A stretch of DNA of 14,589 bases from Gracilaria vermiculophylla (lineage: Eukaryota > Rhodophyta > Florideophyceae > Gracilariales > Gracilariaceae), in assembly GCA_019155205.2 (NCBI GenBank), contig JAHNZQ020000079.1, positions 1,495,286 to 1,509,874 on the forward strand, given 5' to 3'. The notes beneath the pieces were generated by a model that did not search any database, was not told where the DNA came from, and saw nothing but the letters and a program-made list of their open reading frames with translations. The first letter of the stretch is position 1. Every line of letters starts with the position of its first letter. Position numbers and translations under genes: made by a program. Of the stretch, positions 4,287 through 13,670 are shown in pieces.

Positions 4287-4922
4287 ATGGCAAATCACGT
4301 ACTCACTCTCGTATGCGTTTCTCTCATCTGTTTCAGCCGTGCGGTAGCGATTCCAACCGACCGCAGTGTGATCATCAAAGTGCAACGTGACCTCCGAACA
4401 ATAGGGTGGCCAATCTCTATCGACGGTGATTACGGATCGGCCACCACCGCTGCCGTTAAACACTTTCAAGCTGGCTGGACGTTCAAATCACTTGTCGCTG
4501 ATGGAGATGCAGGACCGCTCACACGCCCAGAAATAGCCAGATGCGCTGCCGCGGGCGGTTACGCTAGTCAGCACTTTAAGTATTCTGAGTTCAAATCCAA
4601 AGGCAATGGCGATATCAAAGTGGCACGCGAGTTGTTACTGGCGCTCGAGAAGCTTAGGGCAGCAATGGGAGGCAAGTCACTCAAAATCGTGTCTGGGTAC
4701 CGCGATCCAGCGCATAACGATAATGTGGGAGGAGCAAGAAGTTCTCAACACCTTTTCGGAACTGCAGCAGATATTCCGCAAGGCTACGGGGCTACTGTTG
4801 CTTCTGTCAAGCAATTGAAAGTATTTACCGGCATTGGAATTAAGTGTAATAAATGGGTTACACACGTAGATGTACGTCCAGGAGATCCGTCTAGACCCAC
4901 AACCTGGCAATATCCTTGTTAA
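4287..4922 (+). CDS. Secreted zinc D-Ala-D-Ala carboxypeptidase, family M15, with peptidoglycan-binding domain
   Basis: Single-exon protein of 211 residues. Residues 1-22 form a signal peptide ending near AVA-IP. Residues 25-88 form a PG_binding_1 domain (VQRDLRTIGWP, IDGDYGSATTAAVKHFQ, DGDAGPLTR). Residues 95-211 form an M15A/M15_3 peptidase domain, with SGYRD at 136-140, SSQHLFGTAAD at 152-162 and WVTHVD at 190-195. His155, Asp162 and His193 match the zinc ligands of the Streptomyces albus G enzyme, and the domain order is also the same. The family cleaves the terminal D-Ala from peptidoglycan stems. A secreted eukaryotic copy would act on bacterial walls outside the cell or in the gut. The lack of introns, bacterial domain order and eukaryotic secretion signal suggest horizontal transfer. 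All key residues are intact. It is convergent with the bestrophin gene. Substrate and role are inferred from the family. Confidence 0.93.
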   Translation: MANHVLTLVCVSLICFSRAVAIPTDRSVIIKVQRDLRTIGWPISIDGDYGSATTAAVKHFQAGWTFKSLVADGDAGPLTRPEIARCAAAGGYASQHFKYSEFKSKGNGDIKVARELLLALEKLRAAMGGKSLKIVSGYRDPAHNDNVGGARSSQHLFGTAADIPQGYGATVASVKQLKVFTGIGIKCNKWVTHVDVRPGDPSRPTTWQYPC

Positions 4923-5824: not shown

Positions 5825-8800
5825 TCACAGTGGAAATCCAATGCGGTTCGTCTCCACAACATCCCTGACACCATTTCCGTACAAGTGAAAATTACATCTA
5901 ACAGCCCCCACGCATTTTTCAACAAAAGATTCGAGAGGAACATCGGATATATCGAAACCAAATGGATTAGACAGCTCAGCTGCCCACTTTTCGATGCCAA
6001 GGACACCGTATAGGATAAAAGGAATCCAAAAGACAGTCAACCATCCACTAGATTCTACTAAAGCCAGTGGTAATAGTATGAACCAAATCACAAGAATTAT
6101 GTTCAGATGTTGCAAGTAGCCATATGGCATAGGCACCCGTACCATTTTGTCGCACTCAAATGAATATTCATTTAGAGAGTGAAGATCAGTCCAGATGTGT
6201 TCCAGTTCCAAGTCACCGGCTGGATAGACCATATCCTTGCTCGAAGAAATTCTTTCGCCTTGAGCAAGATAGTTTTCAACCACATCTATGCAGTAACTTG
6301 CTCTTTCAGGGCTCAGGAGCACCTTTCGTGTGTCTTCTTCCCCCAAAACGTGCTGAAATTCCGCCTCATAGTCCTCTCCTCGCAATTTGCTCATGACTGC
6401 AATGGCAAACCCTGCCAGATGTGCAGCTAATCGCTGCAAATCTCCAGAATGCCACACATTATCCTGATAGCTTTCAAACAGTCGATTGCTCAGCACAAGC
6501 AATTTACAAAAAATCCCTTGCTGCCATATTTGAGTGGCTGAAACGTATCGGAGGTGGCTGTCATAGAGGCGTAAACCCAAAAGAAGAAATAAAGCATATC
6601 CAATGTATTCTTCCACAGAACTGTCAATTGCAACACGGGAACAAAACCACGGGGCGCAAGAATCATTGAAATATCTTTCAAAAGGATAGATCTTTGAAAT
6701 ATACCAGGCGAAGATAGTTGAAACCACTGTCCATGCCAGCATGCCTATTAATGCCCACGGAGTCAACGCACTGCGTGCTAATCTTGCTGTATCGCTCATA
6801 TGCTTCAGACCGCTGACCCCATCCAATAAATTTTCGATATTCTTTGTCTTCCAGTACGGACTGCTTTTTGATGGGGTAATGAGTCCATGTTTTCTGCTTC
6901 TATAATATCGGGCAATATGAAGCACGTCGGAGACAATGTTGTGAGCAAACTCATCGAGATCTAAGTCATTCACCTCCAAACCAAATGGATCTTGAATCTC
7001 CTCTGCAATGGAATACATGCTGCAAATATACATTTGTTAGTCTCGTTAACATTCGACACAACAATGAAGTTCTTTCAACATACCCAAGCACGCCAAACGC
7101 TATTATCGGTACAAGAAAAATTGTGAACCAACCTGCACAAAACATACTCAAGAATTCGACATAAACGAAGATTGTGTGTTAGTAGGCTTCAAATAGAACT
7201 TGTAGGTGATACTCTGATCTTACCGGATATTTCTGCCAACGCAAACGGTAGTATGAAGAACCAAATTCCAAGCAGAGCATTCAATAAAGAGGAGAAACTA
7301 GGAGCAATCGGAATGGTGCTTAAAAATTCTGAATGTTGAACGGCTTCTTCCAATAACTCCATTTCTTTTTGAATAGCTATAAAGCGCGGGCTGAAGGTAA
7401 TTGTTTTCTTCGAATACTCTGGACGAGTTGCAGCAGCAAGCTGATATGCTTTTAAGACTTCCAAGCAATGTCGAGACATGCTTGTTGCGCAATGCACTCG
7501 GGCAATATCCTCTTGAGAGATGAGCCCTTTCACTTGACGCACATCACGACTTTTCCTCACTTCACTCTTCAGAACAAGAGGAAGAGCAGCAATATGAGCA
7601 ATGATACGTTCGTGATCACCTTCATGAATGGTTCCACTTTCAAATAATGTAAGAAATTGAACTGCGAGCGAGTGGCAAGATGAGTGAAGCGTATGAACCC
7701 AAATATTTCCAGCCTCCTTGTATCGATCAAAAGCTGCATCTACATAAAAACCAAGAAGAAGAAAAGCTATGAATCAAGTTTTTGAATAAGAACCCGAGGA
7801 CGGATCTTTTTCTTGTCAGTTCTATTCTTGATTCAAAAATTATTATCTATTTGAAAACAGGAAAGAGAATGCATACCTGGAAAAGAGACATAGCTTCCGA
7901 CTGGCCTAGCAATGCTTATGGCAGAAAACCACCATTTTGCATTTTTTGAGGGGTTTCTGAACATAAAAGATACAAATACTGTGAACCCTGTGTAACATGT
8001 AACTAAAAGCAGTGCTTTCCAAGGAATAGAGTACGTAATATGAGAGTATAGATTTGGTTTTGCTTTCGGGGCTTCGAGTCGATCAAAAAACTGCATGTCG
8101 CAATCCTCAACATCAGAATGCAACACGTTTTCAAGGTGAGGGAGAATATATCGTTTTCTCACCGTCTGATGGCGTAGTTTGACGCCAAGATAGGCGTTTG
8201 AATCTGGAAAAGAGTCTTCCAGGTACCGTTTGCAATCCCATTCTGCGCTTACAACTCCGTCTATGACAAATTCTGCAGTTTCAAGGCATATTTTGTCAAC
8301 CGGTATATCTATATCATCAGTTCCATACGGATCTACCAGCTTCTTTGCAACTTCTTCTAAGGCAAGCACCCCATAAGATATAATTGGCGCCAAAAGTATT
8401 GTGAAACCTCCTGTCTTTGGAGTCATTGCAAACGGAAGCAGCATAAGCCAGATTACGGTGAAGAGATACTGATGCCTAGTATAGCTTTTCACCACTGGAT
8501 ATTTTTTCACGGCGAATGCTTGGTGAAGGAGTTCTCTGATTTTAAGGACTCTGTTTAACAATAAAGTCACCATTTTACCGTCAAACCGATATCGACCTTT
8601 CTTATTACATATCGCCGGATGCTCCATGTCTTGTAAAATAATGTAGGATTCGATACTTTGAAGTAGATACGATAGTGGTTCTTGGCTGTTTTCCAAAGCC
8701 CTTTTATCATCTTTCGAAAGCAAACCGTGCACATCATTAACTCTTTTTCTGAAATCTCCTCCCAAAAGACAGTCTCGAAATGTCAGAGGAATTTGTGCTA

Positions 8801-11456
8801 TATGTGCTACGATACGTTCTTTATCGTTGTCATGAAATTCACCATCCATTATTGTCTGAGACACTTCAAGTGCTAAACTTCTCAGTTGCATTTTTAACTC
8901 AAACAAAAGTCTCACACCTTTCTCGTACCGCCATATTGCCGCAGAAGCTCTAAACGCCAAAATCAAGAAAAGCGAAAACCCAGCATTTTTCAAAACTCGT
9001 AGATCAACATCTATCGGACTGCACCAAGCGTGACATGCATTTCTTTTCTCATTGTCCCATAAAATTGAAGTGATGTATGATGAAACCACGGCAAGCATAT
9101 TCCACGATATGACCATAATCATATCTTTAGCTTTCAGCGATGGAATTTTTGAAAGAAGTCTTGCAAGTGCAGAAATCAGAGATGGTGCTCTTTCTTTTCG
9201 TTTTTTCTGCAACCATTTCCAAATCGAAGGGCCTTCTTTAATATTGCGCCTGACCAATGTAGAACTGATACTTTTCTTCATTTCTTTTGGCTCGAACATA
9301 ATTCGAGAATAACCCGACTCATAGATGTACCCAGCAGATCCACTTGCGCTTGCTTTGTATATATCGTGCAAAGATTGCTTCATTTCCTCGCAAAAAGTTT
9401 GCAAAGGAATATCATCAGGATCAAACCCAAAAGGCTCCGAAATATTTTTTCCAATTTCCAATAGATTAACAACGGAATATCCAACTGGAATCACATAGAA
9501 GAAAACCAAGAATCCATTGAATTCGACAGTGATAAGCGGCAGAAGAAACAACCAAAGATAAGAAAATACGTGCAAATGAGCGGTGAGAGACGGAGATGCT
9601 GGATATCGATGTATTGCAACACATTCTTGTACAGCCGTCTCAATATTTTTCAAGGCGTATGCTATGCTTCTTCCCGTTTTTCTCGCAGGTGGCTGAGATA
9701 AGTTGCAATATTCCTTGTTAACACTGTCTAAACTGTTACAGTAAGCAAAAATTACATCCATAGCATGTTCAAAGAGATCCTCTGCTTCGTTAAACGCCGC
9801 GATATCCTTGGACGAAAGCAATGCATGCAATTCACTTGTATCTCTACTATCGCGGAGCATCAGTTTTGCTGCAAACGGCAAGGCAGCAATATGGGAAAAT
9901 AGACGTTCCCTGTCTCTCTGGTGCCATGTACCAGGCTCACAGACGATGGCAAATCGAAAAGCAATCTCTTCTATGGCAGGCTTAACCTTACAGAGCCAGA
10001 GTTCTAGACCCCTTGAGTATCGTTGGTACGAATCATTTAGCCAAAATCCTAGAACGAGAGATAGACCAAGACTAACGTATGCATCTGTCGAGCTTTTGAC
10101 TGGAATATAAATGCTCCACCATCGACTATTCCCGTTTTCTATATTTTTTGATTTATACCATGCCCACAGGACAACAACAGTGGTCCACATCAATAAAGTG
10201 AATAGAGTCAGCGTCACATTTCCGACGACATACCCGGTCCATGAGGAACTTATGAACGATTGATCTCGAGTAGAATCAATCTTGTTTGACTTCGAAAGGT
10301 AGGAGGCCGGAGCGGGCTGCTCTAGCCATGCTGGAGTGTCATGTTTTGCATCAATCAAAGAAACATATGAACTTTTCTGGGAAAAGAATGTGTTAAAAAT
10401 ACGCAGAGCGGTTCCACAAGATATTTCATTGAGCTTGATGTCGTGTATATCGTATCCAAACGGGTCGTTAAGTGCCATGGCTATGTAGTACAGCATTGAT
10501 ATCGAGTAGCTGATTAGAACAGTCCAAACTACTGTGAACCACCCGCTTGTCTGCACTATAGTAAGAGGAAGAAAAAACATCCAGATATATAAAAAAATAT
10601 GTAAGTGATTAATATAGCCAGCGGATGGTGTGAATTGGGAAATTGTGATGAGAATGCTCGCATGGGAATCAATAGCGTCCACGTTGTTCATGAGTATATG
10701 ATGTGTGGCACGACCAGCTGGGGACTTTTGCATGGCAGCAGATTTGAAAGAAACTGGAGCATCATCCTGCGCTGCACTCAGATAGGTCCTTATCACCCTC
10801 GTACATTGAAAAGGCATAATCTTCGCAGAAATCACGTCGGAAATATCTTCTTTACAGAGGATACGTTCGAGCTGCTGTGCTTCTCTCTCTCCCCGAAGGT
10901 GCATCTTCAACGCGATGGGAAACGCAACCAGATGAGCAACAATGCGATCAAGGTCACCAGGATGCCACGATCCAGGTGGAAAACTCTGACGGAGATCTCT
11001 GACAATTCCCCGTAGTTGCGCATCCATATGCGTCCAATTCAGTTGTGCTTTCCAAAAGCGGTTGCTGGCTTCACGCACAAAAAAGCCTAAGAGAATGAAG
11101 AGCGCCCATCCGACAGCGTAAGCGACGGATGAAGAAACATTAATATGTGATGTCCAAAAGTCATCAGAGAATGAGCTGATGCCTTTTGGTGCAAGCGCAT
11201 ACGCGATAAGTGTGACAAGCACAGTCCAAACGACTTGGAAACCTAGAACGGTCCTGGGAAGTGTGATCAGTATTTGTGCAATGAAAGAGACACTCGACGG
11301 GTCTGGTTCAGATGGAGCAGAGCCAAGTTTTCGAACTCTGGCGCACTGGAGAAGGTGATTGGCTAAATGCTGACGTGAGAAAGAGTGATATAAACGTGAT
11401 GTGGTTGAGAGCAGTGGCGCCTCTTCGTCGGGAGGCATCACCTCTTCAACGGGCAT
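5825..11456 (-). CDS. Five-domain tandem bestrophin (RFP-TM/UPF0187) anion channel, 1788 residues in four exons
   Basis: Exons on the minus strand are 11456-7877, 7766-7224, 7132-7084 and 7019-5825. Together they are 5367 bases, an exact multiple of three, ending at the TGA at 5827-5825. All introns have GT..AG borders and restore perfect alignment between domains. The product contains five consecutive bestrophin-like domains, at about residues 50-355, 405-700, 770-1070, 1140-1425 and 1470-1770. Each has TM1, TM2 with an LLGF-type pore-neck segment, a cytosolic helical part with H..D..R...H, a TM3-TM4 module (IW..LLP...) and a closing PFG....D(I/L/V) motif. Known bestrophins are pentamers of one-domain subunits, so this chain could form a whole channel. 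The sequences look closer to the bacterial/fungal YneE type than to animal BEST1-4. The ATG follows an in-frame TGA 21 bases upstream, with context ACCATGC. Transport function and single-chain assembly are inference. Confidence 0.9.
5882..6784 (-). other. Bestrophin domain 5 (about residues 1470-1770)
   Basis: TM1 is at about 1476-1498, TM2 near 1529-1546 (ALFLLLGLRLYDSHLRY), WHSGDLQRLAAHLAGFA from 1580, the TM3-TM4 module (IWFILLPLALVESSGWLTVF) from 1702, and NPFGFDISDVPLESF at 1742-1756. Only about 30 residues follow before the stop, so the chain ends with this domain. Cys1512 and Cys1517 lie in the TM1-TM2 loop, at nearly the same place as the cysteine pair of domain 3. Confidence 0.88.
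7020..7083 (-). other. Intron 3 (64 bases, phase 2)
   Basis: The donor is TGG|GTATGT and the acceptor TTGCAG|CATG. The split codon GG|C gives Gly in GVLGMYSIAEE, which aligns with GVLGIEKWAAE in domain 5. Together with intron 2 it isolates a 49-base exon (7132-7084) that encodes most of TM4. Skipping that exon would shift the frame. Confidence 0.85.
7133..7223 (-). other. Intron 2 (91 bases, phase 1)
   Basis: The donor is CCG|GTAAGA and the acceptor GTGCAG|GTTGG. The split codon restores Gly in the sequence EISGWFTI, matching ESSGWLTV of domain 5 and QTSGWFTV of domain 1 at the TM3-TM4 turn. Confidence 0.85.
7767..7876 (-). other. Intron 1 of the five-domain bestrophin gene (110 bases, phase 1)
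   Basis: The donor is CAG|GTATGC and the acceptor CATAG|CTTTTC. The junction makes VGSYVSFP|AFLLLGFYV, which aligns without gaps to domain 5 (VEEYIGYALFLLLGLRL). If retained, translation would run 14 further residues to a stop, leaving three complete domains plus TM1 of the fourth. A second, in-frame acceptor after the pyrimidine-rich tract lies at 7740-7741. Confidence 0.82.
8247..9149 (-). other. Bestrophin domain 3 (about residues 770-1070)
   Basis: TM1 is at about 776-799, TM2 at 822-840 (SLFLILAFRASAAIWRY), FHDNDKERIVAHIAQIP at 874-890, the TM3-TM4 module (IWLMLLPFAMTPKTGGFTI) at 1002-1020, and DPYGTDDIDIPV at 1042-1053. It is the most divergent in TM2: the usual LGF is LAF, and the Trp of the WH motif is Phe. 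Two cysteines, Cys808 and Cys812, sit in the TM1-TM2 loop and could pair outside the membrane. Confidence 0.86.
9357..10244 (-). other. Bestrophin domain 2 (about residues 405-700)
   Basis: TM1 is at about 408-432, TM2 at 457-475 (SLVLGFWLNDSYQRY), WHQRDRERLFSHIAALP at 511-527, the TM3-TM4 module (LWLFLLPLITVEFNGF) at 634-649, and EPFGFDPDDIPL at 674-685. The last motif is nearly the consensus of one-domain bacterial bestrophin-like proteins. A linker of about 50 residues joins it to domain 1. The long linker after it (about 700-770) is basic and polar, with KKRKER at 751-756. Confidence 0.88.
10392..11309 (-). other. Bestrophin domain 1 (about residues 50-355)
   Basis: TM1 lies near residues 60-88 and TM2 near 111-130 (ALFILLGFFVREASNRFW). 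The cytosolic motif WHPGDLDRIVAHL is at 164-176, the TM3-TM4 module (IWMFFLPLTIVQTSGWFTVV) at 291-310, and DPFGYDIHDIKL at 331-342. The TM1-TM2 loop, luminal or extracellular in bestrophins, carries an N-glycosylation sequon at Asn106 (NVS). Residues 10-16 ahead of the domain read DEEAPLL, an acidic dileucine sorting motif. The insert between the H..D..R motif and TM3 is about 110 residues, similar to the other four domains. Confidence 0.88.
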
Positions 11457-12683: not shown

Positions 12684-13670
12684 ATGTCGGCAGTATTTCC
12701 ATCATCGCTTCTGTTAGTGCTGTTTGGGATATTACTTCTCACCTTTTCCCACTGCCTGCACGGCAATTCAATTCCGACTCCCCCGCCCGCGCGCTTTCTG
12801 ACCAAGAAGTTCAAGACCATATCTGGAAAGCATATGGCCTATGTGGAGGTGGGTGAGGGCGATCCCATCATCTTCCTCCATGGCAACCCGACCTCCTCCT
12901 ACCTGTGGCGCAACGTCATGCCGTATCTGGAAGCTCCCGGTCGCCGCCTCATCGCTCCAGATCTCATCGGTATGGGCGACTCTGAAAAACTCAATTTCAG
13001 CCGCCCCAATCTGTACACATTTGTGCAGCATTCAAATTTCCTGTTCCAGCTACTGGAGGCGCTGAACGTGAAGAACAACGTCACGCTCGTGCTTCACGAT
13101 TGGGGCTCCGCGCTTGGCTTTTTGTGGGCATTTTACAACCGCGCAAATCCGTCAGCCGTGAAGGGCATTGCCTTCTTTGAAGCCATTGTCACCCCTTTCA
13201 GTTCCGCCACGTTTGCACCCGACGCTGTGGACTTTTTTACCCTAATGCGGTCGCCGGCCGGCGAAAATCTCATCTTGCAGCAAAATCAGTTCATTGAACG
13301 GGTGTTGCCGGACTCTATCTTGCGCAGCCTTGAGCCGCAGGAGTTTGCCGAGTACCGCCGCCCGTTCCTGCAACCGGGCGAGGATCGACGGCCCACGCTG
13401 ACGTGGCCCCGGCAGCTTCCAATTGATGGTGTGCCGACTGACGTCACGGCTCTGGTTGAAATGTACTCGCAGTGGTTGGCCACTTCCAACATTCCGAAGC
13501 TGTTCATCAAGGGCGAACCGGGCATTTTGATCACAAATGGCTCGGAGCCTCTGAAGCTTGTGAGGTCATGGCCGCTAACAACGGAAACTTCAGTGAAGGG
13601 TATTCACTTTTTACAGGAAGATTCCCCAGATGACATTGGAAGGGCCATTGCTAATTGGCTACCATCGTAA
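12684..13670 (+). CDS. Secreted haloalkane dehalogenase, subfamily HLD-II (Renilla luciferase-like relative)
   Basis: Single-exon alpha/beta-hydrolase of 328 residues. Residues 1-24 are a hydrophobic signal peptide ending near FSHC. The core then shows IIFLHGNPTSSYLWRN (62-77), LIAPDLIGMGDS (89-100), the nucleophile elbow LHDWGSALGF (137-146), FFEAIVTP (164-171), LEPQEFAEYRRPF (216-228) and GIHFLQEDSPDDIG (306-319). Asp139 is the nucleophile, Glu166 the acid, His308 the base, and Asn68 plus Trp140 the halide-binding pair, all as in DhaA/LinB. The family hydrolyses carbon-halogen bonds to alcohols. Renilla-type luciferases share the same residues, so a luciferase or another hydrolase role is possible. 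It lacks introns and most of it is GC-rich relative to its surroundings, with an AT-richer last part; both suggest bacterial origin. There are sequons at Asn104, Asn132 and Asn285. Secretion is unusual for the family. Confidence 0.92.
   Translation: MSAVFPSSLLLVLFGILLLTFSHCLHGNSIPTPPPARFLTKKFKTISGKHMAYVEVGEGDPIIFLHGNPTSSYLWRNVMPYLEAPGRRLIAPDLIGMGDSEKLNFSRPNLYTFVQHSNFLFQLLEALNVKNNVTLVLHDWGSALGFLWAFYNRANPSAVKGIAFFEAIVTPFSSATFAPDAVDFFTLMRSPAGENLILQQNQFIERVLPDSILRSLEPQEFAEYRRPFLQPGEDRRPTLTWPRQLPIDGVPTDVTALVEMYSQWLATSNIPKLFIKGEPGILITNGSEPLKLVRSWPLTTETSVKGIHFLQEDSPDDIGRAIANWLPS

Follow-up and report, generated by a model that had tools for sequence, protein, structure and literature searches.

Gene structure and domain content of the locus

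The window, that is, the whole analyzed stretch of 14,589 nucleotides from Gracilaria vermiculophylla, carries on its minus strand one long gene encoding five bestrophin domains in a row. The domains are denoted D1 to D5 in the N- to C-terminal order, and the gene itself (5825..11456) is referred to as the window gene. Its features are as follows.

5825..11456, minus strand: the gene, with the start codon at 11456 and the stop codon at 5825; 1788 aa, ~204 kDa
7877..11456, minus strand: exon 1, comprising D1, D2, D3, and the beginning of D4 (ORF list, spliced frame)
7767..7876, minus strand: intron 1, GT..AG, in the TM1/TM2 interval of D4; same place in paralog L021, absent from L022 and L023
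7224..7766, minus strand: exon 2, the central part of D4 (splice sites, joined frame)
7133..7223, minus strand: intron 2, GT..AG, at the SG|W motif of D4; shared by the three paralogs of the same genome
7084..7132, minus strand: exon 3, a micro-exon of 49 nt; same length in all four genes of the genome
7020..7083, minus strand: intron 3, GT..AG; present in all three paralogs of the same genome
5825..7019, minus strand: exon 4, comprising the last part of D4, the entire D5, and the stop (ORF list, joined frame)
10362..11288, minus strand: D1, aa 57-365 (PF25539, E 9.1e-36; profile match)
9321..10262, minus strand: D2, aa 399-712 (PF25539, E 1.2e-34; profile match)
8259..9182, minus strand: D3, aa 759-1066 (PF25539, E 2.9e-29; profile match)
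6878..8051, minus strand: D4, aa 1136-1438, split by all three introns (PF25539, E 2.4e-39 for the spliced piece; profile match)
5852..6805, minus strand: D5, aa 1463-1780 (PF25539, E 2.3e-37; profile match)

On the unspliced minus strand, an open frame of 1213 codons is followed by bestrophin-like frames of 194 and 403 codons. The joined exons form a frame of 1788 codons whose sole stop is terminal, while the other two frames contain 93 and 97 stops; the gene model with three GT..AG introns suggested in the earlier note is thus borne out by splicing. Since exon 1 alone reads through all of D1-D3 and into D4 without meeting a stop codon, the tandem layout does not depend on the introns.

All five protein pieces match the Pfam family PF25539 (Bestrophin_2) with 102.9-136 bits against a cut-off of 27, in agreement with the five full bestrophin repeats that had been read from the sequence. 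A domain count with PF01062 (Bestrophin) had been proposed as a check: the count of five stands, although the matching model is PF25539, and none of the five pieces has PF01062 listed by Pfam at E<=1. NCBIfam returned no family at E<=1 for D1 or D5. Genome searches with PF01062 and PF14023 gave no match here or in any control genome and are therefore uninformative, whereas the PF25539 search did work. The profile built from the five window domains covers each domain at near full length. It assigns 252-352 bits to the domains of eight other complete members, except for D5 of P0002, which is split into matches of 64 and 224 bits, and no more than 2.5 bits to any of 204 control sequences, shuffled or reversed. 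By hydropathy alone, each domain shows helices, fewer in total than the 20 transmembrane helices expected.

Several other features were seen in the window. On the plus strand, positions 4287-4919 encode, in one open frame, a small secreted-looking protein with peptidoglycan-binding and peptidase M15 domains, possibly a horizontally acquired cell-wall enzyme of the bacterial type in an algal genome. Also on the plus strand, the single open frame at 12684-13667 encodes an alpha/beta hydrolase with an N-terminal hydrophobic stretch, which by eye resembles haloalkane dehalogenases. Positions 1-900 of the minus strand probably contain what is left of a Tc1/mariner-type transposase, spread over several disrupted frames; one of the three pieces searched matches HTH_Tnp_Tc3_2_like weakly, below the cut-off.

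Five-domain relatives in the same genome and in other species

In the 44.8-Mb genome of 27 contigs, PF25539 has 23 matches at six places. After splicing, three further five-domain genes were obtained, L021, L022, and L023, with lengths of 1793, 1842, and 1805 aa; two of these paralogs lie ~0.3 Mb apart on contig C14 and one on C21. The D4 micro-exon of 49 nt and its flanking introns 2 and 3 are common to the window gene and all three paralogs. L021 has intron 1 as in the window gene and one additional intron in D1 (L021:2602-2700). The introns of D1 and D4 were considered as a possible shared trace of domain duplication, the L021 D1 intron being near the D4 intron-2 site; because it is four bases away and in a different phase, no intron homology is claimed. 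Contig C11 contains two apparently single-domain bestrophins interrupted by introns (L024 and L025), presumably ordinary homopentamers. Among other observations in this genome are nine PsaA/PsaB-type matches on contigs C2, C17, C19, and C20, two of the three on C17 being inside frames of 2750 and 3246 codons; these may be organellar copies, insertions into the nuclear genome, or parts of a foreign contig.

Three protein database searches yielded 26 different proteins, P0002 to P0027, the last of which was left outside the counts as a weak match (stretches of 63.8 and 11.2 bits). Complete or nearly complete are P0002 of Agarophyton chilense, P0004 of Gracilariopsis chorda, P0016 of Gracilaria domingensis, and the database proteins P0005 and P0006. 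Each has five domains, although ~29 profile positions are missing from D5 of P0002, hence its two separate matches. Complete models from other species are annotators' predictions or of uncertain making, and the titles of the relatives are limited to 'unnamed protein product', 'hypothetical protein', and 'Bestrophin/UPF0187'. By taxonomy look-up, G. chorda belongs to Gracilariaceae, Rhodophyta, and the Agarophyton and Gracilaria relatives are presumably placed likewise.

Homologs with variable domain counts, which according to the earlier note would argue against a pentamer, were looked for. All nine members that are complete or nearly so, four from this genome and five from the databases, have five domains, and none of the 20 fragments exceeds five. 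Twelve fragments start within D1 and/or end within D4 (P0003, P0007-P0015, P0017, and P0018), and eight of these begin or break within ~20 profile positions of an intron site known from the own-genome genes. The other eight (P0019-P0026) are pieces of D5, seven of them also carrying the D4 tail. The counts refer to searches that sample short exact words within length bounds, two of which scored the best 8000 candidates, so that they may have overlooked tandem bestrophins in other lineages. One search admitted proteins of 0.55-1.75 times 1193 aa, and thus two- to four-domain proteins as well; all seven of its results belong to the five-domain family, the shorter ones being fragments. Among prokaryotic contigs, a scan with one peptide pattern matched 203 stretches, none confirmed as a relative by tblastn. 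In plasmid records, D5 matches 44 entries, the ten best at 22-26% identity over at most 76% of the query; these matches served solely as a source of outgroups.

P0007 is probably derived from a transcript, as judged by its label. In this protein the D4 exons are joined as in the proposed model, but the frame breaks inside the D4 micro-exon, and all 23 residues of the tail are compatible with L022 exons 3 and 4 spliced together and read in a shifted frame. The break may be a sequence error or reflect a truncated isoform. Given the broken frame and the label-based origin, P0007 lends only partial support to transcription.

Domain order, selection, and the pore neck

Two trees of the domains were built. 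The quick tree has 104 rows, with domain pieces spanning fewer than 150 profile positions left out; here each of D1, D2, D3, and D4 is set apart from all other rows by a branch of support 100. When the eight last-exon pieces are given a label distinct from D5, the groups take 5 (D5) and 4 (last-exon pieces) changes; with the last-exon pieces unlabelled, D1-D5 need 4 label changes, which is the minimum. The careful tree comprises 49 rows, 45 of them domains from the nine complete proteins, plus three bacterial bestrophins and one single-domain bestrophin of the same genome. In it, each of D1-D5 is one clade (bootstrap 100, SH-aLRT 99-100), again with the minimum of 4 label changes. E. coli is a long row in both trees and L024 in the larger one.

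The domain order is identical in all nine complete members. Since each position is its own clade across genes and species, the order was set before the genes diverged, and since then no domain has changed place, been lost, or been swapped for another position in these nine proteins. At four of the five positions the two Gracilariaceae-like gene groups exclude P0005 and P0006, the branching in D4 being indecisive; the pentad therefore predates the deeper splits sampled. Within the window gene, D1-D5 share 24-31% identity with each other, compared to 54-61% with the same position of L023 and 49-55% with that of L022, as expected from the strong divergence and old duplication proposed earlier. 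The fixed order of five different subunits, also proposed there, agrees with the position-specific clades and the uniform order, and is what one would expect if each domain occupied a particular site of a ring.

All five domains bear codon patterns indicative of purifying selection, judged from codon-position identities rather than from a fitted dN/dS model. In three gene pairs of this genome, identity is 0.57-0.88 at codon positions 1 and 2 and 0.27-0.45 at position 3 in all five domains, second positions alone being 0.73-0.88 identical in every domain. The third base of shared fourfold codons agrees in 3 of 39 to 18 of 51 cases. Silent positions are nearly saturated with changes, yet the protein sequence is maintained.

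At every position, 90-117 columns are conserved in eight or more of the nine members. Among 273 well-filled columns, 18 have one residue at all five positions, each in at least eight of the nine proteins, whereas 55 are conserved at three or more positions, but not alike. These 18 columns include H..D..R, W...LP, P.G.D..D, and the neck Phe, all among the landmarks noted in the original reading of the sequence. In seven of the nine members the four linkers are, by position, 62-69, 82-87, 87-92, and 59-61 residues long. They deviate in the two distant members, being 98, 67, 90, and 70 residues in P0005 and 68, 70, 103, and 125 in P0006.

For comparison of the pore, the 45 domains of the nine complete members were aligned to a KpBest fragment, whose neck sites are I62, I66, and F70 and whose aperture site is I180. 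The F70 site is Phe in 44 of the 45 domains, the exception being Leu in D5 of the window gene. The I62 site depends on the position: it is Trp in D1 and Leu in D2 of all nine proteins, and Phe in eight of nine for each of D3, D4, and D5 (W, L, F, F, and Y for D1-D5 of the window gene). Hydrophobic or aromatic residues occupy the I62 and F70 sites in all 45 domains and the I66 site in 44, with Ala included and one Thr. At the R71 site, which follows the neck, arginine occurs in D3 (9/9) and D5 (6/9) but at no other position. The site of I180 is variable among the domains and the alignment is gapped there. As this site is not kept, the second constriction either differs or is misaligned. A pore formed jointly by the five domains would carry a Trp, a Leu, and three aromatic side chains in the first ring of its neck.

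Proposed architecture of the channel

Both termini of a bestrophin subunit are cytosolic, and hence end-to-end fusion requires no change of topology. We consider it likely that the product of the window gene is a covalent pentameric bestrophin made of one chain, that is, a complete asymmetric pseudo-pentamer acting as an anion channel. The five domains, tethered by linkers of about 60-90 residues, would be arrayed next to one another about a single central pore, each taking the place of one separate subunit of an ordinary bestrophin, and the fixed order together with the position-specific neck residues would make the pore asymmetric. This is the simplest explanation of five domains per chain, five in every complete member, the same order, and selection on each domain. 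The equality of repeat number and oligomer number, from which a complete pentamer had been proposed in the earlier note, is supported by the count of five and by the position clades; closure of the ring within one chain, a stoichiometry of one chain per channel, anion conduction, asymmetric gating, and the membrane location are inferences. The channel type is most likely anion, Cl-/HCO3-, the substrate and the membrane being guesses; by eye, the N-terminus is acidic, unlike a plastid signal.

Several known bestrophins can be compared with this layout. KpBest (PDB 4wd7, 4wd8, 5x87, 6iv0, and others) and the bestrhodopsin entries contain five identical chains each. KpBest is of the same family by sequence, being matched by a ten-domain profile at E 2.8e-34, its TM2 neck ends in Phe, and the P.G motif follows TM4; however, each of its five identical chains has a single domain, in contrast to five different domains in one chain of the window gene. 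Bestrhodopsin (PDB 7pl9), a rhodopsin-bestrophin fusion (Rozenberg et al. 2022, as cited in PMC11453091), is a giant fused algal bestrophin (domain profile E 7.2e-28). It has one bestrophin match per 1187-residue chain, five chains, and rhodopsin as the fusion partner, whereas here the repeated unit is bestrophin. VCCN1 and Chlamydomonas BST1-4 share with the window gene the bestrophin domain and an origin in photosynthetic eukaryotes (profile E 6.3e-17 for 7ek1), but they are single-domain proteins with separate subunits. The plant entries 7ek1-7ek3 have one chain each and so carry no stoichiometry information, while Chlamydomonas BST4 was counted at five molecules per complex according to PMC11638005. 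Red-algal homologs detected by BLAST are mentioned in PMC11142338, none of them within the BST1-3 orthologue clade. No account of a five-domain bestrophin was recognized from titles and abstract openings among the matches listed in the open-licence literature.

It is improbable, in our opinion, that like domains pair across five chains, forming a cluster or lattice of five linked homopentameric pores without self-closure. Ordinary bestrophins do assemble like with like, linkers of 60-90 residues might span adjacent pores, and for BST4 peaks at multiples of five molecules, possibly grouped pentamers, are reported in PMC11638005. However, such an arrangement does not require five domains, yet all nine complete members have five, and the position-specific necks suit different neighbors in one ring at least equally well. 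Slightly less probable still is a real ring in which some domains have degenerated to a scaffold or to ligand sensing, the protein being a regulator or transporter rather than an anion pore. The variability of the aperture site and the restriction of the R71-site Arg to D3 and D5 would fit this, whereas the neck is hydrophobic throughout, save one Thr at one of its three sites, and 90-117 columns per position are conserved.

That the five-domain frame arises from annotation or assembly, by stitching of genes or with the domains produced apart, seems very improbable. The gene model for this locus was derived from genomic sequence rather than from cDNA, and P0007 ends in D4. Nevertheless, one unbroken exon holds three domains and the beginning of the fourth, the same five occur at three other loci and in proteins of three named species, and P0007, its frame break aside, connects the D4 exons as proposed.

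The covalent pentamer has a parallel in the four-domain chains of Nav/Cav, which relate to tetrameric K+ channels and are the well-known natural one-chain channels with four-fold arrangement. The number of repeats per chain equals the number of subunits per oligomer there as well, and the repeats have diverged by position, but the fold is unrelated, four-fold, and cation-selective. We know of no natural single-chain version of a pentameric channel. It is likely that red algae evolved a five-fold counterpart of Nav/Cav, a single-chain pseudo-pentamer with an asymmetric neck (Trp, Leu, and three mostly Phe residues in the first ring), whose repeats acquired fixed and non-interchangeable places in an ancestor that predates the duplications behind the four genes of this genome.

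The family would then be a natural concatemer with the subunit order set by evolution. Therefore, the role of each place in the pore could be read from conservation and tested by mutation of a single position, which is impossible in a homopentameric bestrophin. The occurrence of five domains in all complete members found also argues, from evolution and without recourse to crystals, that bestrophins are pentameric, and these red macroalgae gain a distinctive set of probable anion channels.
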